Source: a virus. From it: a stretch of 20,583 bases of DNA. The DNA is taken from positions 1-20,583 of the IMG/VR virus record IMGVR_UViG_3300035698_028302; one strand, 5' to 3'. Below the pieces are notes generated by a model that worked only from the letters and a program-made list of their open reading frames with translations, made no database searches and had not been told where the DNA came from. The number at the start of each line of letters is the position of its first letter. Within the stretch, counting starts at the first letter, position 1. Below are positions 6,712 through 18,999 of this stretch, one piece after another. Position numbers and translations under genes: made by a program.

Positions 6712-7365
6712 TTAATTTACATTGAACATTGACATAAAATCTGTATTTCTATGCAAGATTTCGCTTGATCTTTCTGGCGTAACAATCAAGGGTCCTGTTC
6801 CTGTTGGTTTAATAAAGTCCGCATAAAAAAAAGATTTTGCTGCCGTGATAAACTTATCAATTACTGTGTCAAGATATCCATCTACTGTTTTATTTCCATC
6901 AGCATAAACAACCACTGTAAATAAAACATCTGAAATAAATTTAGATCCTCCGATTCCAAAGGCATCACTTGACGCACTCATAACCTCTACAGCGATTCTT
7001 GGATAAGAATCAATAGATAAGTCATCTCTTGGAAAATCTGCATGAATTTTATCACTTCCATAATCATAAGTAATTGTGTAAGCTCCTGTCTGCGCAGTTG
7101 TAAAAGTTATTTTTGTTTTTATTGTCGTGTCAAGAAAATCAGGATCATAAGTGTAATCTGTTCCATAAACTAAAGTATTTCCTCCTACCACAACAGATCT
7201 AATATTTTTAATATTTGTAACTACAATCAAATGGGTTTCGTCTGCATCAAAAGTACCTGTATCTGTGTCGGTTGTCACACCCCTCGTCGTGACAGAAAAA
7301 ATATCTTGATTTCTAATAAAATAAACTAATTCATCTTTAAAATTTTCAATTTGTAAACTTGCCAT
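6712..7365 (-). CDS. Tail terminator-like / neck protein with extra N-terminal beta domain (217 aa)
   Basis: The start is the ATG at 7363-7365 (MASLQIENFKDELVYFIRNQ), preceded by AAGAGGA at 6 bases; upstream in-frame TTG codons have no ribosome site. After a first helix comes an inserted beta region, residues about 25-105, with NIRSVVVGGNTLVYGTDYTY, KITFTTAQTGAYTITYDYG. The C-terminal part (PRIAVEVMSASSDAFGIGGS, ISDVLFTVVVYADGNKTVD, TVIDKFITAAKSFFY) fits tail terminator proteins that cap the finished tube and join it to the head. It is placed between the gp10-like gene and the tail tube gene, as expected. The beta insertion resembles those in the neighbouring neck proteins. Confidence 0.65.
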   Translation of the reverse strand: MASLQIENFKDELVYFIRNQDIFSVTTRGVTTDTDTGTFDADETHLIVVTNIKNIRSVVVGGNTLVYGTDYTYDPDFLDTTIKTKITFTTAQTGAYTITYDYGSDKIHADFPRDDLSIDSYPRIAVEVMSASSDAFGIGGSKFISDVLFTVVVYADGNKTVDGYLDTVIDKFITAAKSFFYADFIKPTGTGPLIVTPERSSEILHRNTDFMSMFNVN

Positions 7366-7399
7366 TTTTCCTCTTGGATTTTTATGCCTCTTGGCTTTT

Positions 7400-7473
7400 A
7401 TGTGCAAAGAATATTACTTAGAATATTGCCTCCCTGGTTTATCCTGCGCGCGAACTCCCCAGCAGTTGCACAT
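7400..7473 (-). ncRNA. GC-rich structured leader, possible cis-acting RNA
   Basis: An 8-bp perfect inverted repeat, ATGTGCAA (7466-7473) and TTGCACAT (7400-7407) on the minus strand, encloses 58 bases. Inside are CTGC...GCAG (4 bp) and an AATATT-CTAAGT-AATATT hairpin (6 bp). The enclosed part is conspicuously GC-rich against its surroundings (GGGGAGTTCGCGCGCAGG). If transcription begins about 20-25 bases after the TTTAAATA box, the outer stem would lie at the very 5' end of the RNA. It could be a cis-regulatory leader. No known riboswitch or tRNA is recognised. Confidence 0.35.
7414..7473 (-). CDS. Possible 19-codon leader peptide
   Basis: A short frame MCNCWGVRAQDKPGRQYSK starts 19 bases after the TTTAAATA box. 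It ends at TAA in the same frame as the downstream tail-terminator-like gene. Codons such as CGC GCG are unlike the AT-rich neighbours. It may be a leader peptide, a remnant of a longer N-terminus lost by a stop, or chance inside a structured RNA. There is only a weak GAGAT upstream. Confidence 0.25.
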   Translation of the reverse strand: MCNCWGVRAQDKPGRQYSK

Positions 7474-7480
7474 TGATTAG

Positions 7481-7510
7481 AAATCTCTTTTATATTTAAA
7501 CATTGATGTT
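7481..7510 (-). promoter_or_regulatory. Conserved 5' element, copy 2 (dyad TTAAACAT-CA-ATGTTTAA)
   Basis: The minus strand reads AACATCAATGTTTAAATATA followed by AAAGAGATTT, matching the elements at 1263-1291 and 19010-19038. Here the motif, with two preceding bases, forms a perfect 8-bp dyad with a 2-base centre, and it overlaps the stop codon of the intein-containing gene. The TTTAAATA box lies at 7493-7500. An archaeal promoter or operator for the tail genes is the likely role. Confidence 0.45.
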
Positions 7511-8777
7511 TAACTAACTACTTTGGATATTTCCTCAACAATTATATTTCTAAGTTTAGTATGAATTGTAGTTCGAATAAAAGGATTTGGCCGTGTTCCA
7601 GGATGCATCACTTTCTTCGCAAAGATCTCTTTTTTTCCTATCTTAAATTTCAATGACTTTTTATTTTTTGGAGTAATCAAATGTGGATTAGTATTGTGTG
7701 TTAAAATTCCATTAGCATAAAAAGAACTATTACCTTCTAAACTAAGATTATAAATTATTGACTTATTCATTTCAACTTTCTTTATACTCTCAATTTTTTC
7801 CATAAGAAACTCTTCAAATTGTTCTCTTGTATTTTTTCCATACCCATATTTATTGTGAAATCCAAGATGACATTTTTGACAAAGGGTAATTCCATTATCA
7901 ATATCCCCTGCTTGCTTTGGAAATTTATCTACTGAATTTAAATGATGTGCATTCAATCTTGCTTTTCTCCCCATATCCCCACAAATCTGACAAGTCCAAT
8001 TATCTCTTTTAAAAACATTTCTTGCAAATTCTTTGGATTGAGGAATTCCAATATATTTTCCCCTAAAATATCCCCCTTTCCACTGATGATTTTTCCCCCC
8101 AAGTTGATGTAATCCTTGCTTTTTTTTTGTTTCTTTAGATAAATTCCAATGCTTCCCTTTAGAATAATCATGACGAGAGTATTTATGATAACATTTCTGT
8201 GAACAATATTTTGCTCCATATTTTATTCTTGAGGGATTAACATAAAATTCTTTTCCACATCTACAGTTAAGTTTAATTTTTTCTTTTGTTCTTTCTTTAT
8301 TTCTTTTAGCTAAATCCTGTCTTTTTACCATATTTTTTTTATTACATCTCCTTTTTTCAAATCTCTCGCTTTCTTCCATCCATTACTTGTCCAAATTGGA
8401 TGATCTTCTGTGACCTCTAATTTTCTATTTTTTATTTTGATTATTATTTTTTTTATTGGATATCCTATTTCTAATCTTTCTTTTTGAATTATTTTTTTGT
8501 ATTCTTTTCCAGTCCAAATTAACTCTCCAATTTTCAAATCCTTTAATTTTTTCTTCCCTTCCTTTGTTTTAATAATAATACTATCTTTAAAAAAGCATCC
8601 AAATTCAACAAATTTTCCATAATCAACCATCCAAATAAGAAGGCCTTTCTCGGTTGATTTTACTTTAATAGAATTAGCTAATCTTCCTGAATCTACTGGT
8701 GCAGCCAAGAAGAGTTCATTTTGCATTCTTCTTGCAATACTTGGAAGTGCTGCGTCAAGTAATTTTTGGATATCCAT
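7510..8777 (-). CDS. HK97 gp10-type tail-completion protein interrupted by an out-of-frame intein
   Basis: The two outer parts together form a 120-residue protein of the HK97 gp10 family, which joins tail to head. The N-part is residues 1-60 (IARRMQNELFLAAPVDSGRL, then VDYGKFVEFG). The C-part has 60 residues (TNPHLITPKNKKSLKFKIGK, then IFAKKVMHPGTRPNPFIRTT). Rejoined, they restore the motif VEFG-TNPH that I recall as characteristic of the family. Between them is an intein with an HNH endonuclease domain. The first frame runs 8777-8325 (150 aa, stop TAA). The rest is in the -1 frame to 7510. A -1 slip at A8 (8340-8333) gives complement(8334-8777) joined to complement(7510-8334), 422 aa. Alternatively an ATG at 8329-8331, overlapping the first stop by 7 bases, starts a separate C-terminal polypeptide that could splice in trans. 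A sequencing or real indel is also possible. The start overlaps the previous stop (TAATG). Confidence 0.8.
7693..8597 (-). other. Intein with HNH homing endonuclease domain (about 302 aa after frame correction)
   Basis: The splice junctions are clear. Cys at 8595-8597 opens block A (CFFKDSIIIKTKEGKKKLKD). Block B is LEVTEDHPIWTSNGWKKARD with the T-x-x-H motif. The C-terminal blocks are IIYNLSLEGNSSFYANGILT and H-N (Asn at 7693-7695), followed by Thr as the +1 extein residue. Between them lies a Cys4 zinc-finger-like segment (CRCGKEF ... YCSQKC). A NUMOD3-like stretch follows (GKHWNLSKETKKKQGLHQLG). Last is an HNH domain: TCQIC, LNAHHLN, DIDNGITLCQKCH. All splicing and nuclease residues are present; only the frame is interrupted, at the A8 run after block B. 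The intein spans 905 bases, one short of a whole number of codons. Confidence 0.9.
8334..8340 (-). promoter_or_regulatory. Slippery heptamer A AAA AAA at the intein frame break
   Basis: The zero frame reads GTA ATA AAA AAA ATA TGG TAA. The heptamer A AAA AAA is in the correct register for -1 slippage, and a slip continues into NMVKRQDLAKRN of the nuclease-containing frame. It is the same heptamer as in the tail chaperone gene. Polymerase or sequencing slippage on A8 is an alternative. Confidence 0.5.
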
Positions 8778-9391
8778 TATATTCTATAAAGAAGTACAGT
8801 CAAGAACATAGAATCCCCTGCAAACATTCTTTCACTAATTGTGTCGATTCGGTACACAATTGAATTATGGGTTATCTTATCATATTTGTTAAGAGTTTGG
8901 GAATAAATTGCATACATTCTTGCATCTGCTCCTTCGCTAAGTCCAGATTTATTAAGAGAATATTTTGTGTCTGCATTTCCAAAGCAGACTACTATGTCTT
9001 CATCTGTTCCGTCGGTATAAGTTTTACTTCCATCTACATTGCCTGGGGTCATAGTGACAGGAGTTCTTGTTACGCTGATTCCAAAGTCTGTTAATGGGCC
9101 GTTCTCAAAGTCACTATTCCCACTTATTGTTGCTGCACCGACTCCCTCAAAATAATTAATAATAATATTTTGATCGTCGTAAACTGGAATCAAGAAAGTG
9201 ATTGTTGAACTTGCATCTAAATGTGAAATTGTAAAATCAGTATCTTTTATTAAAACCCTCGAAGAGAAAACCAATAGACCATTTGTTTGTGTTAATTGTG
9301 TATTAACTAAAGTTAAAACTCTACTTGTATCACCATCAGAACCAGTGCATTCACTTCCCGTTCTATTTTCAGTTTTTACTGCGATTGCCAT
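8777..9391 (-). CDS. Neck / head-closure-like protein (204 aa)
   Basis: Start and stop overlap neighbours by single bases (TAATG at both ends), so translation is coupled. Residues about 14-85 form a beta pattern (RVLTLVNTQLTQTNGLLVFS, DFTISHLDASSTITFLIPVY, NIIINYFEG). This resembles the insertion in the tail-terminator-like protein and part of the adaptor. The C-terminus (THNSIVYRIDTISERMFAGD, then MFLTVLLYRI) resembles small head-closure or stopper proteins, which end in an 'xxYRIxxVxxxxxxxxxxxLxL' beta hairpin. Position just before the gp10-like gene fits a neck component. The family assignment is tentative. Confidence 0.5.
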   Translation of the reverse strand: MAIAVKTENRTGSECTGSDGDTSRVLTLVNTQLTQTNGLLVFSSRVLIKDTDFTISHLDASSTITFLIPVYDDQNIIINYFEGVGAATISGNSDFENGPLTDFGISVTRTPVTMTPGNVDGSKTYTDGTDEDIVVCFGNADTKYSLNKSGLSEGADARMYAIYSQTLNKYDKITHNSIVYRIDTISERMFAGDSMFLTVLLYRI

Positions 9392-12300
9392 TAAATTTCA
9401 CCCCATCCATCTGAGCAATAATCCCATCTTGATTTATCTTCATTATAACATCTTGTTTGTTTTCCCCCACTTAATCCACCAGGACATTCTTGAATTATTC
9501 CCTTAATTAAACATTGATATTCTTTAACAAGTTCAACATTATTTAATGATTCAAGATGTTCAATTCTATTTTTTAAATTATCATTTTCTTGTTTTAGTTC
9601 ATAAAGAGCTTGTTCATGTTTAGCCAAAATATCTGAAATTGAAACCCCCTCTGATTCTTGTAATTCATAAGTAGATTCTTCTTTTCCAAAAAGTTTTCTA
9701 TTCTCCGTTGAAGTTTTTATTTTAACAATATTTGTTATAACATTTGGGCTCATTAGATTATGTCTTATTTTTCCATCTTTATCAATTAACTCCGACGCTG
9801 GTTTGATATAATCCCAAACACTTCCCCATTCAGATTTCCAAACTGATGTTCTTGTTATATAATCATCAGCAGAAACCGTTCCTTTAAACCATGCAAAATC
9901 TTCTGAAATTTGGGTATCTCCTATACTAAAATTAGAATTAGCATCTACATAAAAACCATCCTGATCTAAGAAAACTGTTGCCGTGCAATTTCCATAAGTT
10001 TGATCCTCACAAAAATCAAATTCAATTGTGTAATTCCATTTAGTAATCAAAAAAGAAGCATCACTCGTATCAATTACCCCAAAATCAAAAAAGGAATTAT
10101 CTGTTGAAGTTTCAATAACAGATATTGAAGGTGAATAAAAATCAGCAATAATTAAATTGCTTGTAGAGTTTGTACCAACTACTAATTTTTCAGATAAATT
10201 TGTTAAATAAATTGTATCTCCAAGACGGCTCCATTTATTGTCTCCCCCACCTGCAACACTAAATGTTTGCATTGTTAATCTCGAAGAGTTTGGAACTAAT
10301 TGTTCATTTGGTTCAATAGTTATTTGATCTTTTATTACCATTCTTATTTTATCCCCCACAGCTAATGATAAAGGTTTAGTAATTGCCATATAACCACTAA
10401 TTGTAGGATTTGTTTCTCTAAGATACTCTTGAGAAAATGCTCCATCTACCTCAACAAATCCTGAACCTGTGTCTCTTTGTAAAGCTAATCTCGGCGCACC
10501 TCTTGCCCCCCCTATTGTATTAACAATTTCAACACTTGCTTCAGCAGTTATAACATAAACTCCCTCTACAACAATCTCAACATTTTCTGGATTAACTGAC
10601 TCTGAATGGATATAATAATCTGAATCTTCTATTTCTTCTGAATCTAATTCAATAACTTGATCTAAATTTGTAATTGTCATTGAACTTGAGGCCTTACCAT
10701 GAAATATTGCATGAACAAAATCTAAGTCAGAACCCCCCCCACTATAAATTTGAATCTCAACTACTCCATTTGTTCTGTTTACTAAAGTCACTCCTGATCC
10801 TGTAAAATTAAGTTGCGTTGCTAAATTAATTACCTCTGTTCCATCCGAGATATTTATTCCTGAAATTCCTCCTCCACTTCCACATGCAATAAATTCTAAA
10901 CCAGTTTCACTTGAATTAACTGCTACACATTTTCCAGATTTTCCAACATAAGAACTTGGAGTATCTGAGATATTTAAGAATCCCTCAAACTCTCCATTTA
11001 TTACTGCTAAATAAGAATATTCAACCCACCAACTTACTTGACAATAACCCGCACCTCCCGCAGTTTTAGTATATGCTGTTAAAGTATCTCCATCAGAAAA
11101 ATCAAGATCACAAGTATTAGTCTCTGTATTCCCTGTCATTAAAACACTACAAGCAGCGTCTACACTATTAACTCTCATCGTAACATTTGTGCTAGTTCCT
11201 GCTGTCTGACAAGATAATCCTATCTTTTTAATCGTTCCATCATAAGCCATTGTTGGACCTTTCTGTGCATTTGCACCATTACCAAATGCCCACTCATAAG
11301 AATTATCATTCAATATTGAATTTTCCTCTGCCCACATTAATTCTCTGAAGGTTATTGTGCTTGTAACTTCTGCACCCCCGCTAATTAATTGATTTACAGT
11401 TTCATTCAACCATGTATTATTTAAGAACATAGTATTTGTGTCATTATATAGTTCTGGAGAACTACCTACTTTTCCAACTCCACTTCCTCCAAAAGATGAA
11501 GAACTTATACAAGAAGAATTACCAAGTAAAACTTCATCTCCATTACAAGCAGTTGAAGCATTTGTATCTGAGGTAGTTCCATTTAAATATTGGATTCCCC
11601 CCTCACCAGAAACATTCAAATATTCTAAGATTAAAGAGAATGAATTATTTAATGTTTTTTCGTTTGGCTCTGTAGTAATTATATCTTTTATGGTTATTCT
11701 AATTATATCTCCTGTACTTAAATCCTCATAAATTGTTTTAGATAAATGAGCACCAAGATTTTTTGTTTCACGAATATAGTCTCTGGAAACTGCACCATCA
11801 ATATCAGCAAATCCTGTTCCAGTATCTTTCTGAATTGTCATTATTGGCCCACCACGTGTTCCCCCTGTTGTATCTACAGAATAAATTGATCCCTCTGCTG
11901 ATATTTTATACAATCCATCTCTAAGCACTGTAACTTGCCCTTTATTAATTGATGTACTATGTGAATAATAATCTGTGTTCTCTCTTTTTTCTATTCCTAA
12001 AAATACTTCTGTTTGAACATTTGTAACCTTTTGTTCTTCATTATTATAAGCCTCAAATAATGCGTAAGTAAAATTAACCGGCGTTCCTGTAGCAGTTCCT
12101 CCAGAAATATTAATTAAAACTCCTGAACTCGAATTTATCATATCAACTCCACTTCCAACGATTGTGAGATTTGTTGCTAACTGAACTAATCCTGAATTAT
12201 TCAAAATATTAATTCCACTTTGATAATTTGTTAATTTTAAATCTATTGAATCATTTATCCATGAACCATTAACAGATAAAGATTTATTTTCTGTTCCACT

Positions 12301-14115
12301 GATTATTATCGAACCATCTGGAGAGAAAGCATCTTTTAAATAAGCAATTAATATTGCAAGTTTGCTTCCAACAAATCCTATTGTTGATTGATCTGGGTCT
12401 GCGCTAATTGTTGTTCCTGAAATCTCAATACCCTCTCCTCCAGTATAAGCAGTTCCTCCAGAGAAAATTACCCAACTATCACCTCCAGGAAAAGTATATC
12501 CAGCATTATTATCAAGATTAAGTAATGCCCACCCTGAACTCGGAGACTCGAATGTCCAATCTGTCCCATTGTATTCTGTAATATTATCTTCATATCCCGT
12601 CCAATTTCCAGCCCCAACAGAAGTAACAACATATCTATCTCCAAGAGTCGGAGCACCTGGTTCAGTATTTGTGAAGTTTAAAACTGGATCTTTCCAAGTT
12701 AATCCTGTCACTAGATCATCAACATATTTCTTTCTAACTGCTTGGTTGTCTGTTGTTGGATTTGCATTAGCAAGAACTGGAATCTGTAAAAATGTCTTTA
12801 CTCCATCTATTGATTCTGTTCCATTAATATGAACCACTGAATCATTTAGATTTGTTATTTGAGTGTCTGTATAAGTATTTGCTAACGCTGTTTGATTGTG
12901 TGCCCATGTAGCATAAGTTGAATTATAAGTTGAATTAAATCCAGCATCTAAACCTACATCTATTGAAGAAGAATTAAATTCTGTCATATTTATAGTTAAA
13001 TTTTTCTGAGTATCTGTACCTGAAACAATAATCATATCATCTTGGCTTTCAAGCGAATGAATAGGAATATTTAGTAAATCTAAAAGATTATTTCTTATAA
13101 CAAATGTAGAGACATTATAAGCAATTGTTAATAAATCTCCCTCAAATTTAAGCCCATCATTTGCTTTTATTTGAACACTAATATTTGTTCCATCTGAGAT
13201 TAAAATACCATTTCCTGAAGATAAACTTATGTTAGATGTTCCTGAATCAATGCAAGTCCCGTCAGAAAAACACATTTGATTAACATCATTCAAATTATTA
13301 TCATCCATTGAACCATCAGATTCTGAAACCCAATCCCCTTTCATAATTAAACTTGAAATATTAGCACCTTCAAAAACAACATAATCAGACTTATTTAATG
13401 TTTGGTCGAAAGGATTATAAATCTCCCAACTATTTTTACAATCTTCTGGAGAACCTAAACATAACTCAACTGTATGAACAGATGATAAATCAAAGAACTC
13501 ATGTCCTTCACCGTAAGCATCACCTGACATATTCAAAAGTACGACCTTCAACTCATTCAAAGTTAAATCTTCTCCAGATAACAATGTTTGAATATTTAAT
13601 GTTGTATTTACTGAATTTAATTTATCTGTTTCATTATACCTTTGGTCTGTTTTATTTAACTTTAAATCATCTAAAGCAGAATAATTTCCATCAATATCAA
13701 TTCTTAATTCGGCTTCACTTTCTGTTCTATTTCCTGAAATCATATCAACTATATTTTGCATTGTAAACATATTAGTAATTTTTAAGAATATTGAATCTAC
13801 CCAACTTGCTAAAGAATTATTATATACAACATCTTGAGAATCAACATAACTTTTGTTTGGATAAAGTTCATCTGTTAAAGTTTGATTAAAACTAAGGTTT
13901 CCTCCTACACCCCCTTCAATAATTGTTAACATCGAACCACATGTGCCTGTTGAATCATCGCATAAATAATCTCCATAAAAATATGCTCCATTTGTAATAT
14001 TATATCTATCTCTGAGATTAATGTTTGCACTTGGATCAAAGTCTGCACTAACAAAAAGGCAAGAAAACATTAATAAAAATAATATCATTAAAGTTGGCTT
14101 TAATTTAGATTTCAT
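9391..14115 (-). CDS. Giant secreted fibre-like surface protein (1574 aa)
   Basis: The start is the ATG in an ATGA overlap with the adaptor gene. It gives a clear Sec signal peptide: MKSKLK, then a hydrophobic core (LMILFLLMFSCLFVSA), then DFDPS. The mature protein is rich in N-x-S/T sequons (NLS, NKT, NGT, NSS, NWT). Around residues 455-540 it has a phage fibre-type unit (TDNQAVRKKYVDDLVTGLTW, APTLGDRYVV, NWTGYEDNITEYNGTDWTFE) like DUF2793-type tail-fibre domains. Two copies of a jelly-roll-like module lie at about 634-836 and 1082-1287. Near the C-terminus is a coiled coil (DILAKHEQALYELKQENDNL), then a four-Cys domain ending YCSDGWGEI. No C-terminal membrane anchor is seen. It is inferred to be an exported adhesin or glycosylated fibre. 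Its place inside the neck cluster is odd for a Sec-exported protein. Confidence 0.8.
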   Translation of the reverse strand: MKSKLKPTLMILFLLMFSCLFVSADFDPSANINLRDRYNITNGAYFYGDYLCDDSTGTCGSMLTIIEGGVGGNLSFNQTLTDELYPNKSYVDSQDVVYNNSLASWVDSIFLKITNMFTMQNIVDMISGNRTESEAELRIDIDGNYSALDDLKLNKTDQRYNETDKLNSVNTTLNIQTLLSGEDLTLNELKVVLLNMSGDAYGEGHEFFDLSSVHTVELCLGSPEDCKNSWEIYNPFDQTLNKSDYVVFEGANISSLIMKGDWVSESDGSMDDNNLNDVNQMCFSDGTCIDSGTSNISLSSGNGILISDGTNISVQIKANDGLKFEGDLLTIAYNVSTFVIRNNLLDLLNIPIHSLESQDDMIIVSGTDTQKNLTINMTEFNSSSIDVGLDAGFNSTYNSTYATWAHNQTALANTYTDTQITNLNDSVVHINGTESIDGVKTFLQIPVLANANPTTDNQAVRKKYVDDLVTGLTWKDPVLNFTNTEPGAPTLGDRYVVTSVGAGNWTGYEDNITEYNGTDWTFESPSSGWALLNLDNNAGYTFPGGDSWVIFSGGTAYTGGEGIEISGTTISADPDQSTIGFVGSKLAILIAYLKDAFSPDGSIIISGTENKSLSVNGSWINDSIDLKLTNYQSGINILNNSGLVQLATNLTIVGSGVDMINSSSGVLINISGGTATGTPVNFTYALFEAYNNEEQKVTNVQTEVFLGIEKRENTDYYSHSTSINKGQVTVLRDGLYKISAEGSIYSVDTTGGTRGGPIMTIQKDTGTGFADIDGAVSRDYIRETKNLGAHLSKTIYEDLSTGDIIRITIKDIITTEPNEKTLNNSFSLILEYLNVSGEGGIQYLNGTTSDTNASTACNGDEVLLGNSSCISSSSFGGSGVGKVGSSPELYNDTNTMFLNNTWLNETVNQLISGGAEVTSTITFRELMWAEENSILNDNSYEWAFGNGANAQKGPTMAYDGTIKKIGLSCQTAGTSTNVTMRVNSVDAACSVLMTGNTETNTCDLDFSDGDTLTAYTKTAGGAGYCQVSWWVEYSYLAVINGEFEGFLNISDTPSSYVGKSGKCVAVNSSETGLEFIACGSGGGISGINISDGTEVINLATQLNFTGSGVTLVNRTNGVVEIQIYSGGGSDLDFVHAIFHGKASSSMTITNLDQVIELDSEEIEDSDYYIHSESVNPENVEIVVEGVYVITAEASVEIVNTIGGARGAPRLALQRDTGSGFVEVDGAFSQEYLRETNPTISGYMAITKPLSLAVGDKIRMVIKDQITIEPNEQLVPNSSRLTMQTFSVAGGGDNKWSRLGDTIYLTNLSEKLVVGTNSTSNLIIADFYSPSISVIETSTDNSFFDFGVIDTSDASFLITKWNYTIEFDFCEDQTYGNCTATVFLDQDGFYVDANSNFSIGDTQISEDFAWFKGTVSADDYITRTSVWKSEWGSVWDYIKPASELIDKDGKIRHNLMSPNVITNIVKIKTSTENRKLFGKEESTYELQESEGVSISDILAKHEQALYELKQENDNLKNRIEHLESLNNVELVKEYQCLIKGIIQECPGGLSGGKQTRCYNEDKSRWDYCSDGWGEI
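10255..10870 (-). repeat. Jelly-roll module, copy 2, in the 1574-aa protein
   Basis: This encodes residues about 1082-1287: NISDGTEVINLATQLNFTGS, then DSDYYIHSESVNPENVEIVV, GGARGAPRLALQRDTGSGFV and EYLRETNPTISG. It aligns with copy 1 through shared landmarks: LAT-L-GSGV, DYY-HS-S-N, GG-RG-P-Q-DTG-GF-DGA-S, YIRET/YLRET, and GD-IR-IKD-I-T-EPNE. The fold looks like a C1q/TNF-type jelly roll. Confidence 0.8.
11606..12215 (-). repeat. Jelly-roll module, copy 1, in the 1574-aa protein
   Basis: This encodes residues about 634-836: INILNNSGLVQLATNLTIVG, NTDYYSHSTSINKGQVTVLR, GGTRGGPIMTIQKDTGTGFA, DGAVSRDYIRETKNLG and GDIIRITIKDIITTEPNEKT. It is clearly homologous to copy 2 but diverged, so the duplication is not recent. 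Confidence 0.8.
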
Positions 14116-14951
14116 CTTATACATGGCCTTGGCTTGATCATATCCATGAGTCTGTCTCTCTCTCGAATTAATTGGGTTGCTGTCTCTCTCCATTGGGTAT
14201 AAGGCTCCCCCTTTTGAACTTGAAACTCTGTTAAGTTATATCCTACTATGTCCGTCGCTGATTCTCCAACAATTCTTGCAACCAATGCAATTGATGCCAC
14301 AATATTCATAAGTTTTGTAAAATTTGCATTTATTTCTAATTTTACAACAGTGCTTCCTGACTCGTGCGCCAAAACTAATTGATCAACTACAATTGCTCCT
14401 GCTCCTGGTGTTGCATTAATTTGAGCAACTTCTTTGTTTCCATCCATTCCATAAATTTCAACCCAATCCTCGTCTGCAAAACCTGTAGTTGAATCCAATA
14501 CAATACTCACATCTGTCCCTGCAACTTCTGCTGCACTTGTCGTTGAACTCGTCGAACTTTCATTTAGCCAACCATAAAGATATTTAACAACTATGGCCTG
14601 ATGTTTATTTTTGAATACGCTATTTGTTAATGCTTGAGTTGTATCTAATTCTATTTTTCCACTTTCTTTATATACATGCAAATAAGCAGGATCTTCTGTG
14701 TCTCCATCAATTTTTAAGGCCCTAACAGCTAAGACAGGATTATAGTCTGTGAATATTCTTATTGTTCCGTTTCCGTCGAGAATATCAATTCTTTGTGTTG
14801 GAGTAAAAACTGTATTAAACCTTCTTGGAATTTGTGCTTCAACTTCTGTGATTGTGCTTCCTACATCAGCGTCGCTTATTTGCGTGATTGCTATTCCACA
14901 AGTTCTTCTTACACTTGCAACCGTAATATATGTTCCGTCTCCTGTAGCCAT
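14112..14951 (-). CDS. Head-tail adaptor (connector)-like protein (279 aa)
   Basis: ATG is preceded by AGGA at 8 bases. The N-terminus reads YITVASVRRTCGIAITQISD, followed by a helix with ITEVEAQIPRRFNTVF and a beta segment (RIDILDGNGTIRIFTDYNPV). This is the plan of phage head-tail adaptor proteins that dock on the portal. Residues about 130-205 are an inserted beta domain (DVSIVLDSTTGFADEDWVEI, GAIVVDQLVLAHESGSTVV). The C-terminal helices (NFTKLMNIVASIALVARIVG ... TQLIRERDRLMDMIK) fit the helical end of this family. The stop overlaps the ATG of the 1574-aa gene as ATGA. The adaptor role is inferred from fold pattern and place among neck genes. Confidence 0.65.
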   Translation of the reverse strand: MATGDGTYITVASVRRTCGIAITQISDADVGSTITEVEAQIPRRFNTVFTPTQRIDILDGNGTIRIFTDYNPVLAVRALKIDGDTEDPAYLHVYKESGKIELDTTQALTNSVFKNKHQAIVVKYLYGWLNESSTSSTTSAAEVAGTDVSIVLDSTTGFADEDWVEIYGMDGNKEVAQINATPGAGAIVVDQLVLAHESGSTVVKLEINANFTKLMNIVASIALVARIVGESATDIVGYNLTEFQVQKGEPYTQWRETATQLIRERDRLMDMIKPRPCIR

Positions 14952-15538: not shown

Positions 15539-15888
15539 TCTATCCTCGTGCATCCCTCTGGAGAACAAGACCATTTAATTCCTGCAGTTTGTGTATACAA
15601 AGGATATTCTTTTGGATCTGAAGGAGTTTCATCTTTTACTTCCTGCTCAACCTCAATTTTAACCCATCCTTCCTTGCAAACCTTATAAGTATCTCTTTCT
15701 AATTCTTCAGAATAATAAGTACACCTTGTTCCTAAACCAGAACTAATTTTTTCACAAAGTGCGACAATATCTCTTGACTCGCAATAATAAGCATCGTCGT
15801 CTTGAGAAATAAAATAAGTTGCTCCTCCGCCGATAAGCATAGCTAATGTAATAAATGCCCCGATTGTTAGTTTTGTTTTGTTTTCCAT
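15535..15888 (-). CDS. Membrane-anchored Cys-rich extracellular protein (117 aa)
   Basis: The N-terminal membrane segment (KLTIGAFITLAMLIGGGATY, about 6-25) is a signal anchor. It is followed by DDDAYYCESRDIVALCEK, GLGTRC, YKVCKEGWVKIE and a Pro/Glu-rich part, ending IKWSCSPEGCTRIE. The spacing C-x8-C-x10-TRC-x14-C-x2-GW-x-K-I is nearly the same as at the C-terminus of the 1574-aa protein. Both therefore probably carry the same disulfide-stabilised domain outside the membrane. It is coupled to the 922-aa gene by a TAATG overlap. Function unknown; a partner or anchor for the exported fibres is a reasonable guess. Confidence 0.7.
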   Translation of the reverse strand: MENKTKLTIGAFITLAMLIGGGATYFISQDDDAYYCESRDIVALCEKISSGLGTRCTYYSEELERDTYKVCKEGWVKIEVEQEVKDETPSDPKEYPLYTQTAGIKWSCSPEGCTRIE

Positions 15889-18656
15889 TATACCCTATGA
15901 ATATCTATTTGCGCGCTTGTTGGATGATCTCCGTAAGTTCCAGGGGTTTGCATACTTACAGTTGTTGAATTACTAATAAACTGTAATTTTATTTCATCTC
16001 CAGATGTCCATGAAGCCATTGTCCCTCTAAATATTGTTCCCACAGCGTTTTGTTTAGTTGTGTCTTTCTCAAATGTGCTTCCCTCTACTTCTGCACCATT
16101 CTTAATTAATCTAATTGCAACTATACTATCAGGATTTGCTTGGCTATCTATAAAGGAAAGTCCATAACTTATTTGATAAGTTCCTGTATCAACGATTGTA
16201 AAAGTATCGTTTGTATCGTCGCTATAAGTATGATTGATCCTTGCATTTTCAGAATCTTCATGAGTTTCAAAAGTCACATTCAACCAAACACCTTCTACAG
16301 CAGTAATTGAAACATCTGTATGAGTAGATAAATAACTTGGCAAATGAACATTTTCTCCAGTAATATTTGCAGTTGAATTTATTTCCCCTTCGACAAGTAA
16401 ACCTCCAGTAATTGTTATCCAACCATCAATGAGATTATCAATTATTTCTCCAAATCCCAAAGTGATCTTATCAAAAACAGATAAGTTTCCTTCAATATCT
16501 ACTTCCCCATTATTTAATGGATGAATATTTTCTACAGTTATGTTCTCAGCCTCTATGATCAGATTTCCAAGATAAGAAATTCCAGTTACATTTAAAGTAC
16601 CATCAATTACAACAGAATTATTAAAATTGCTTTCTCCTCCAATAAAAACATCATAAGTACCTCCTTCGTCATCTTGTCCAATATAAACTGTGCCATCTTC
16701 TCCAGGGTCTCCTGCACCAGATTCATCTCCACCTGACCCTGCAGGAACAAAAGTATGCCCACCTGCTCCTCCGTCAGTATCTCCATCAAAAGCATCAGAA
16801 CCATCTGCTCCTCCAATTAACAAATCTCCACCAAAATATCCTGTACCTGAACTTGATTCTCCACCTTCATGTCCTGTAATATAAAATGTTCCTGTTGCAT
16901 CAGTATCATCCTCGTCTGTTCCACTAATAAAGAAATCATGTGTAGGGTCATCCCCTAATGTAAGCCAAGCCACAATTTCATCATCATCTGATTCTCCACT
17001 TAATTCAAAGAGAGTAGATAATGTTCCGTTTACTATTGTTTTAATAATTAAATTTCCTACTTCTTCATTTACATCTGCATTATCTACAACTACTCTTATT
17101 TGACCATAATTTATTTGAGAAGCTCCCCCATCATAAAAATTAATTATTCCAAGATCATTATCAGCAGAAACAGAATCTCTTATTAAATTTAAAATACTCT
17201 CTCCATTGTTTGTTATATTAATTGAACTTGCATTAATATCTAAGACATTAATATTTGTTCCATTGATATTAGATTTAATACTTGAAGTTGCATTGTCCCA
17301 ATTATAAGCTCTAATTTCTCCTTGAATTTCTACATAATCATCAGTAGGATATGATTCATCTTCATCTGGATTAAGAACAATAAAATTTTCTGATTCTATA
17401 GATATATTTTCAGAACCATAAATAAACATTCCATCTTCATCATATTCAAAACAAAATTCTTCATTTGAATCTAAATCTGTTGTATCATTTAAAATACATA
17501 AACCTCCATAATTTAACAATCCCATAGAACTTCCATCATCACCATTAAACAACAAAGAACTTTCAAAATCTATTGTTGAATAATTACTTGAATAACCATC
17601 ATCACTATCATATAATTCCAAGTAACTAAGATTTAAAACCTTTCCACCAATTGATTGTATTAATTCTCCCCAAAGATTTATATCACTTGCATTAATATCT
17701 AAGACATTAATATTTGTTCCGTTAAGAATGTAATTTTGTAAGTCACTAATTTGAGATTCTGTTATTGTTGCCGCAGATAAATTAGAATCAAAATAACCCT
17801 GAAAGTCTGTTTCATTTGTCCAAGCATTTCCTAAAGTGGCAAAGTCAATAATCTGAGATGCAGGTATTGTAACGTTTGTCCAGTTCAACGCATAAATAAG
17901 GTTTATATTTGTTATGTTGTTTCCCCCCAAATCCAAATTTCCATTCCAAACCAACTCTCCAGCGACGAGTGTTCCTGTCACATTTAAAGTTCCATGAATT
18001 GTGGCTGAGCTCGCATTTAGATCTAACAGATCTACATTAGTTCCGTTTAAAATATAATTTTGCAAGTCTATTATTTGGCTTTCTGTTCCTGTGAAATTAG
18101 TCCAGTCTCTTGCAGAGATTGAATAAATAGAAAAATTATATCCTGTTCCATCAAGATTACTTTCTAAATTCGCAGCATAAAGATTAGTTGTATTTACTAC
18201 AATGAAATATCCTCCCTCTCCAGTAAAATTAAAACCTGTGCCATCTAAATTAGATTCTAAATTTGTTGCATATAAATTTATTACTTTTAAATTTGTAGTA
18301 TTTAGCCACCCTGAAACATTCAGATATGCTACATTATCTCCAGCGACGTCAACCCATAAATCTGCACAAGTCACTGAATCATTTAGTTGTGTGATCGCTG
18401 AACTTCCAGGACATGCAGAAGGATAATTTTGTAAACTATTCCAATCAATTGGTCCACCAATTCCTCCTGAAGCATTTATTTGAACAAAAATCCCTGTCGT
18501 TCCATTAAAAGTATTTGCAGAAATCCAATCCATATCATATAAACTATGCTGATCCCCAAGTTGATCATTAATCCATGGTTCTGTATATATTTCTGTTGCT
18601 GCACCAACTAATACTATAAAAAATAACGCCCACAACGCAATAAATATTTTTTTCAT
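15888..18656 (-). CDS. Secreted fibre-like surface protein (922 aa)
   Basis: The ATG at 18654-18656 has GAGGA 6 bases upstream and opens a Sec signal peptide (MKKIFIALWALFFIVLVGAA, then TEIYTEPW). Longer in-frame starts lie inside the preceding gene. The mature protein is dominated by N-x-S/T sequons (NGT, NAS, NVT, NLS) and short tandem repeats such as NLESNLDGTG (twice) and SDLQNYILNGTN-type units. A Gly/Asp-rich stretch at about 605-675 (DGSDAFDGDTDGGAGG) resembles a flexible stalk. The C-terminus, about 775-922, is a jelly-roll-like domain (FTIVDTGTYQISYGLSFIDS, GDEIKLQFISNSTTVSM). No anchor is visible. It is inferred to be an exported, glycosylated fibre or adhesin related in design to the 1574-aa protein. 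Confidence 0.8.
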   Translation of the reverse strand: MKKIFIALWALFFIVLVGAATEIYTEPWINDQLGDQHSLYDMDWISANTFNGTTGIFVQINASGGIGGPIDWNSLQNYPSACPGSSAITQLNDSVTCADLWVDVAGDNVAYLNVSGWLNTTNLKVINLYATNLESNLDGTGFNFTGEGGYFIVVNTTNLYAANLESNLDGTGYNFSIYSISARDWTNFTGTESQIIDLQNYILNGTNVDLLDLNASSATIHGTLNVTGTLVAGELVWNGNLDLGGNNITNINLIYALNWTNVTIPASQIIDFATLGNAWTNETDFQGYFDSNLSAATITESQISDLQNYILNGTNINVLDINASDINLWGELIQSIGGKVLNLSYLELYDSDDGYSSNYSTIDFESSLLFNGDDGSSMGLLNYGGLCILNDTTDLDSNEEFCFEYDEDGMFIYGSENISIESENFIVLNPDEDESYPTDDYVEIQGEIRAYNWDNATSSIKSNINGTNINVLDINASSINITNNGESILNLIRDSVSADNDLGIINFYDGGASQINYGQIRVVVDNADVNEEVGNLIIKTIVNGTLSTLFELSGESDDDEIVAWLTLGDDPTHDFFISGTDEDDTDATGTFYITGHEGGESSSGTGYFGGDLLIGGADGSDAFDGDTDGGAGGHTFVPAGSGGDESGAGDPGEDGTVYIGQDDEGGTYDVFIGGESNFNNSVVIDGTLNVTGISYLGNLIIEAENITVENIHPLNNGEVDIEGNLSVFDKITLGFGEIIDNLIDGWITITGGLLVEGEINSTANITGENVHLPSYLSTHTDVSITAVEGVWLNVTFETHEDSENARINHTYSDDTNDTFTIVDTGTYQISYGLSFIDSQANPDSIVAIRLIKNGAEVEGSTFEKDTTKQNAVGTIFRGTMASWTSGDEIKLQFISNSTTVSMQTPGTYGDHPTSAQIDIHRV
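17226..17261. repeat. 36-bp exact direct repeat, copy 1
   Basis: It is identical to 17685-17720 and encodes GTNINVLDINAS within the 922-aa protein. A more diverged protein-level copy (GTNVDLLDLNAS) lies near 18010-18045. Confidence 0.9.
17685..17720. repeat. 36-bp exact direct repeat, copy 2
   Basis: It is identical to 17226-17261 and lies 459 bases (153 codons) away in the same frame. Recombination between the copies would delete an in-frame block of the fibre-like protein. Confidence 0.9.
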
Positions 18657-18657
18657 T

Positions 18658-18999
18658 TTAATTCCTCGCAGCAACATAAGCCGTCGCTGTTGAATTTGAT
18701 TGTGTTGATGTTTTGCATCTCATATACGGATAAAATGTGTTATACCCATAATGATAAACAGCACTTCCATTTGTCGCAGTATAAGTTTTATCTTGAACAT
18801 CAAACCAAGTTGTTCCGTCGATACTTGCTTGAATTGTAAATGTCACAGCCCCTGTATTTGCTGCACTTGTTAAATACCAAGTAACTCTATTATACCATCT
18901 GCAATCAACCTTGTCTCCTGTTGTCGCGCTCGTAACCGCACTTAGATTTGTTGTTTCCTCTACAACTTTTCCTGCCCCCATCATTAACCTCTTTCCCAT
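18658..18999 (-). CDS. Small structural-type protein (113 aa), unknown function
   Basis: ATG is preceded by AAGGAGGAT, one of the best ribosome sites in the window, suggesting high expression. The protein is beta-rich: YNRVTWYLTSAANTGAVTFT, IQASIDGTTWFDVQDKTYTA and YPYMRCKTSTQSNSTATAYV. This resembles small beta-sandwich phage proteins (the pattern 'vtFtIqaSiDGttW.dv...t') that occur as decoration or fibre-associated proteins. It is the first gene after the terminator-like region and starts a new unit together with the 922-aa gene, 1 base downstream. The role as a virion component is inferred. Confidence 0.65.
   Translation of the reverse strand: MGKRLMMGAGKVVEETTNLSAVTSATTGDKVDCRWYNRVTWYLTSAANTGAVTFTIQASIDGTTWFDVQDKTYTATNGSAVYHYGYNTFYPYMRCKTSTQSNSTATAYVAARN

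Follow-up and report, generated by a model that had tools for sequence, protein, structure and literature searches.

We analyzed a viral DNA stretch of 20,583 nucleotides (nt), referred to here as the window (IMG/VR record IMGVR_UViG_3300035698_028302, a 20.6-kb fragment), in which a gp10/neck gene on the minus strand is interrupted by an intein whose two halves lie in different reading frames. The element is probably a mobile, naturally split intein of the class 1 type that carries an HNH homing endonuclease on its C-terminal half and splices in trans. The conserved feature of the break is the overlap of an ATG with a stop codon and not the run of eight A residues (A8) at which the frame of the window is lost.

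Two Reading Frames Encode the Two Intein Halves

The first open reading frame (ORF1; 8777-8325, minus strand), of 150 amino acids (aa), joins a gp10-type neck N-extein to the N-terminal half of an intein (IntN). The N-extein (8598..8777, 60 aa) ends in KFVEFG and matches HK97-gp10_like (E 7.6e-6) and phrog_5 (tail completion or Neck1; E 1.8e-6), in agreement with the host gene named in a preliminary description of the window. IntN (8328..8597, 90 aa) begins at Cys1 (C61 of ORF1), contains block B (TEDH), ends in KKIW and matches Intein_splicing (E 6.1e-5), a family whose matches on both halves fell under the search cut-off. The second frame (ORF2), on the same strand, runs from an ATG at 8331 to 7510, in the -1 frame relative to ORF1, and encodes 273 aa. 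It comprises an HNH endonuclease region of 177 aa (7801..8331), the C-terminal intein half (IntC; 7693..7800, 36 aa), which ends in FYANGILTHN, and the gp10 C-extein (7510..7692, 60 aa plus stop), which begins at the +1 Thr (TNPH) and has contiguous homologues in relatives with an empty site. The HNH region, with its core at about 7852-7992 and an N-terminal zinc-ribbon-like motif (CxCGKxFxVxPSR..KYCSxxCY), matches HNH (E 1.4e-7, obtained with a 289-aa form of ORF2) and phrog_1271 (E 4.6e-22 over ORF residues 10-189). IntC matches TIGR01443 intein_Cterm (E 6.5e-7, with ORF2 taken from the ATG at 8331). The HK97-gp10_like, HNH and intein_Cterm matches are all over the cut-off, the last of these in the ORF2 of all four lineages described below, and searches against solved structures returned weak intein matches only.

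Both frames, and the A8 run at which the break had been placed (8333..8340, with A AAA AAA in the ORF1 frame), are present. The start of ORF2 and the stop of ORF1 share the string ATGGTAA (8325..8331), an overlap of exactly 7 bases, as previously described. Phage HNH genes are often located in group I introns, and an RNA intron carrying the HNH gene could leave the message and restore a single intein frame. A search of 7300-9000 against Rfam gave no match at E up to 1, and the coding sequence continues without a gap from HNH into IntC, so that there is no room for intron ends; we therefore regard this explanation as extremely improbable.

The Break Recurs in Diverged Relatives

Relatives were gathered by IMG/VR searches with ORF1, ORF2 and the tail tube protein. 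The identical intein site, VE[FY]G/T, is occupied in three further lineages (L002, L033 and L036), which have the same two-ORF architecture at 58-76% protein identity to the window. The L033 sequence is identical in three metagenomes, and a fifth carrier (L076) is interrupted by the end of its contig. Every complete copy is divided between two frames and broken at the same place, with no further stop or frame break, and the insert lengths in the four lineages (905, 908, 875, and 1048 nt) are none of them a multiple of 3. The site is empty in 25 rows of relatives (some of them near-copies), in which the exteins are contiguous with a gap of 0 and no extra base. A scan of a genome collection with ORF2 returned one distant HNH only.

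The preliminary description had raised a homopolymer indel as one explanation, and the break in the window does coincide with the A8 run. A decaying intein, or a sequencing or assembly error in the homopolymer, is nevertheless very improbable. Three other lineages share the break although their sequences differ, and one of them (L033) was recovered from three separate metagenomes; no copy has acquired another stop or frame break, and constraint is retained. L002 and L036 lack the A8 run that the window and L033 have, and these diverged relatives refute the artefact in its simple form. The L033 assembly is not generally broken, because a terminase ORF of that virus (L098:10392-13613, >1,070 aa) with two in-frame intein matches remains a single open frame. 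Given that the break recurs in independent, diverged relatives, it is real and not a matter of chance, and neither a sequencing slip nor simple decay accounts for it.

A Conserved Start/Stop Overlap

The junctions read ATAAAAAAAATATGGTAA in the window and L033, ATAAAAATTTTAAAATGGTAA in L002 and AGAAATGGTTTTTAA in L036. In all four lineages an in-frame ORF2 ATG overlaps the ORF1 stop, by 7, 7, 7, and 11 nt; the shared string of the window recurs in L002 and L033 and corresponds to ATGGTTTTTAA in L036. Codon shuffling puts the chance of such an overlap at P = 0.04-0.06 per lineage. The overlap persists even as the relation of ORF2 to ORF1 changes from -1 in three lineages to +1 in L036. The earliest ATG of the open frame of ORF2 in the window is at 8379. 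We place the conserved start at 8331, at the overlap, because the ORF2 frame is closed by stops 1-5 codons upstream of the corresponding ATG in L002, L033, and L036. The N-termini of ORF2 vary in length between lineages, and those of L033 and L036 begin with PWNK modules that also occur near the start of the free-standing HNH proteins of these viruses. Both features fit an endonuclease gene that arrived with a start codon already in place. Among the close gene junctions of this virus group, stop/start overlaps of 1 or 4 nt occur most often.

Two coupled polypeptides, one of the possibilities set out in the preliminary description, are thus the best supported arrangement, since the overlap is kept in four of four lineages across the change of frame. 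Ribosomes would translate ORF1 (N-extein and IntN) and halt at the TAA that overlaps the ATG of ORF2, and termination-coupled initiation at the overlap would yield ORF2 (HNH, IntC and C-extein). Association of IntN with IntC and splicing in trans would then restore a gp10 of about 120 aa, and homing by the HNH protein would spread the element to empty gp10 alleles. The start codon of the HNH gene itself, coupled to the ORF1 stop, would have replaced in-frame continuity. Splicing would gate virion assembly, as had been suggested. In phage T4, free-standing endonuclease genes also overlap the upstream stop (mobE with UAAUGA, segF by 11 bp), and synthesis of these overlapping endonucleases is ascribed to coupling or to scanning by the ribosome (PMC2988022).

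Several points weigh against coupled initiation followed by trans-splicing. No canonical Shine-Dalgarno spacing was found before the ORF2 ATG (in the window, GGAG lies 16 nt upstream), and AlphaFold models of ORF1 and ORF2, each predicted separately, are of low confidence (mean predicted local distance difference test score 51.7 each). The comparison includes only four intact lineages, so that independence is limited, and the +1 case depends on one contig (L036). There is some chance that gp10 works unspliced in two pieces, an alternative weighed below. Finally, a -1 slippery heptamer lies inside the short overlap in three of the four lineages, and A AAA AAA evidently serves for frameshifting in the tail chaperone of this virus group.

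Programmed -1 Frameshifting as an Alternative

A programmed -1 frameshift on the A-rich slip site would produce one precursor of the 422-aa type that splices in cis, with the ATG adding free HNH-IntC at most. We consider such a frameshift unlikely, whether it acts alone or together with initiation at the ATG, but it is a rival of some substance. Three lineages have a heptamer in the right frame, 4-5 codons ahead of the stop: A AAA AAA in both the window and L033, and T TTA AAA in L002. Moreover, each of the 28 relatives examined retains A AAA AAA in the overlap of the tail chaperone, where the two frames are invariably in the -1 relation, which indicates that the hosts can slip there. The tail assembly chaperone of the window (5588-5211, minus strand, with a -1 extension to about 5020) looks like a typical frameshift gene and carries an A9 run (GAT AAA AAA AAA GAT TAA), on which a -1 frameshift is likely to occur. 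It is because these viruses appear to use such slips in the chaperone that the frameshift explanation of the intein break stays alive.

On the other hand, the relation in L036 is +1 and a -1 heptamer is lacking there, yet its C-extein and IntC are still constrained. Unlike the chaperone of these viruses, the gp10 break has neither a conserved slip site nor a constant -1 relation across the four lineages, and downstream stimulatory RNA structure is absent from all four (z +1.1, +0.7, -1.3, and +1.1), although A-run slips do not always need one. The ATG would be superfluous under frameshifting, and slip heptamers are common in the lysine-rich frames of this virus, with 7 in the 246 codons of its other HNH gene. 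The single slip-derived precursor that had been proposed is therefore disfavored as a general mechanism; partial -1 slippage could still take place in the window, L033, and L002, each of which has the -1 heptamer. In a dual-output version, which has a slightly smaller chance of being correct than frameshifting as a whole, ribosomes would reinitiate at the overlap to release free HNH-IntC (used in homing and trans-splicing) and would also slip there by -1 to make the full precursor (used in cis-splicing). If this were true, the balance between endonuclease and mature neck protein as virions assemble would be set by the choice that the ribosome makes.

Constraint on Both Intein Halves and Signs of Mobility

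Cys1, T-E-D-H, H-N, and the +1 Thr are invariant in the four lineages, as are the HH/N/H residues, with the HNH histidines among them, and the Cys of the HNH region. With the profile matches given above, this bears out the intact splice blocks and intact HNH domain reported earlier. Pairwise ratios of nonsynonymous to synonymous substitution rates (dN/dS) are 0.11-0.26 for IntN and 0.14-0.46 for HNH, which shows purifying selection, and IntC is too short for firm values. The invariant motifs and the low ratios in IntN also strengthen the earlier argument that retention of functional residues speaks against decay.

These data bear on a further alternative, in which the gene is split without splicing: the halves of gp10 would act as two polypeptides and the intein parts would be remnants, as in NrdA of phage Aeh1. 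In Aeh1, NrdA is divided by a homing endonuclease and functions as two unspliced pieces (PMC2988022, PMC3653736). At the present locus, all splice-motif residues are kept in both intein halves, with low dN/dS over strongly diverged copies. The maintenance of both halves argues for splicing rather than a two-piece gp10, and we consider the latter improbable. In typical split inteins, the break falls at the endonuclease site and leaves parts of about 100 and 40 residues (PMC11923092); the halves described here, of 90 and 36 aa, encoded in two frames and with catalytic residues kept, fit these proportions and are split where most cis inteins carry an endonuclease. Opposite charges of the halves (IntN +14 to +18, IntC 0 to -6) were also considered and set aside as too weak in the window.

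The presence of the element on the tail-tube tree is scattered and takes 5 changes to explain, no fewer than when labels are shuffled. By tail tube, the window is closest to L038 (86%), whose site is empty, and carriers are more alike in IntN than in the exteins. Scattered presence, exact empty sites in close relatives and likeness in IntN together make up the pattern that a homing element would leave.

The gp10 genes of L063 and L064 seem to be ~29 residues short just after the intein site (gap -87) and so offer no standard target. HNH-like coding stretches lie directly beside empty gp10 genes (L063:2834-3079, L074:2908-3129), and a second HNH gene is located at 515-1252 in the window; either the gp10-adjacent stretches or this gene could be a possible source of the endonuclease. 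In another phage, L081:11-1318 is an open-frame intein with an HNH-like ORF (HIHHIDGD..N.RIENL) nested out of frame at 547-1188, a third way of combining an endonuclease with an intein.

Relation to Known Systems

The "fractured genes" that Dassa et al. reportedly described in 2009 (gp41-1, NrdA-2, NrdJ-1, IMPDH-1) are said to be phage genes split in two where an intein would carry its endonuclease, the IntN and IntC parts being encoded by different ORFs that flank a free-standing endonuclease gene of a Vsr-like family. The present locus is similar in that a phage gene is cut in two, IntN and IntC occupy separate ORFs and a homing endonuclease is found at the break. It differs in that HNH is fused in frame to IntC, its start overlapping the stop of the IntN ORF, and in that the host is a small neck/tail gene. 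No free-standing endonuclease ORF separates the halves, as HNH and IntC form one ORF in four of four lineages. Bifunctional cis inteins likewise place the endonuclease between IntN and IntC at the canonical site, whereas no continuous frame exists here in any of the four lineages. In the ShiLan element (PMC11855218), too, the HNH endonuclease lies in another frame than the phage gene it interrupts, but an intein splicing domain is lacking and the host frame remains open; the present locus has intein halves and a closed host frame. As in Aeh1 nrdA/mobE, an HNH homing endonuclease gene splits a phage gene, and as in T4 mobE and segF, the start of the endonuclease overlaps the stop of the gene before it (PMC2988022); unlike the present element, neither the Aeh1 nor the T4 system includes an intein, and the split Aeh1 protein works in two pieces. 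The arrangement is a new variation on split inteins and "fractured genes." The papers searched contained no HNH-IntC fusion whose start/stop overlap shifts frame from lineage to lineage, although this does not prove such an arrangement to be unreported.

The locus looks like a snapshot of a cis intein turning split, in which the endonuclease start arrives, the frame closes before it, and trans-splicing rescues the host gene. This order of events is testable, as the start overlap is constant across lineages that differ in frame relation. The set used in protein engineering would gain naturally split inteins that come from a virion structural gene, divide 90/36 and bear a nuclease on IntC.

Genomic Context

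Among isolates, the nearest tail tubes are those of Haloarcula viruses (33%), and the terminase of one relative is nearest to those of Bacteroidota phages. The tail region of the window also encodes very long, secreted-looking proteins of 1600 aa (9391-14193) and 929 aa (15888-18677), both with signal-peptide-like N-termini and many N-x-S/T motifs.
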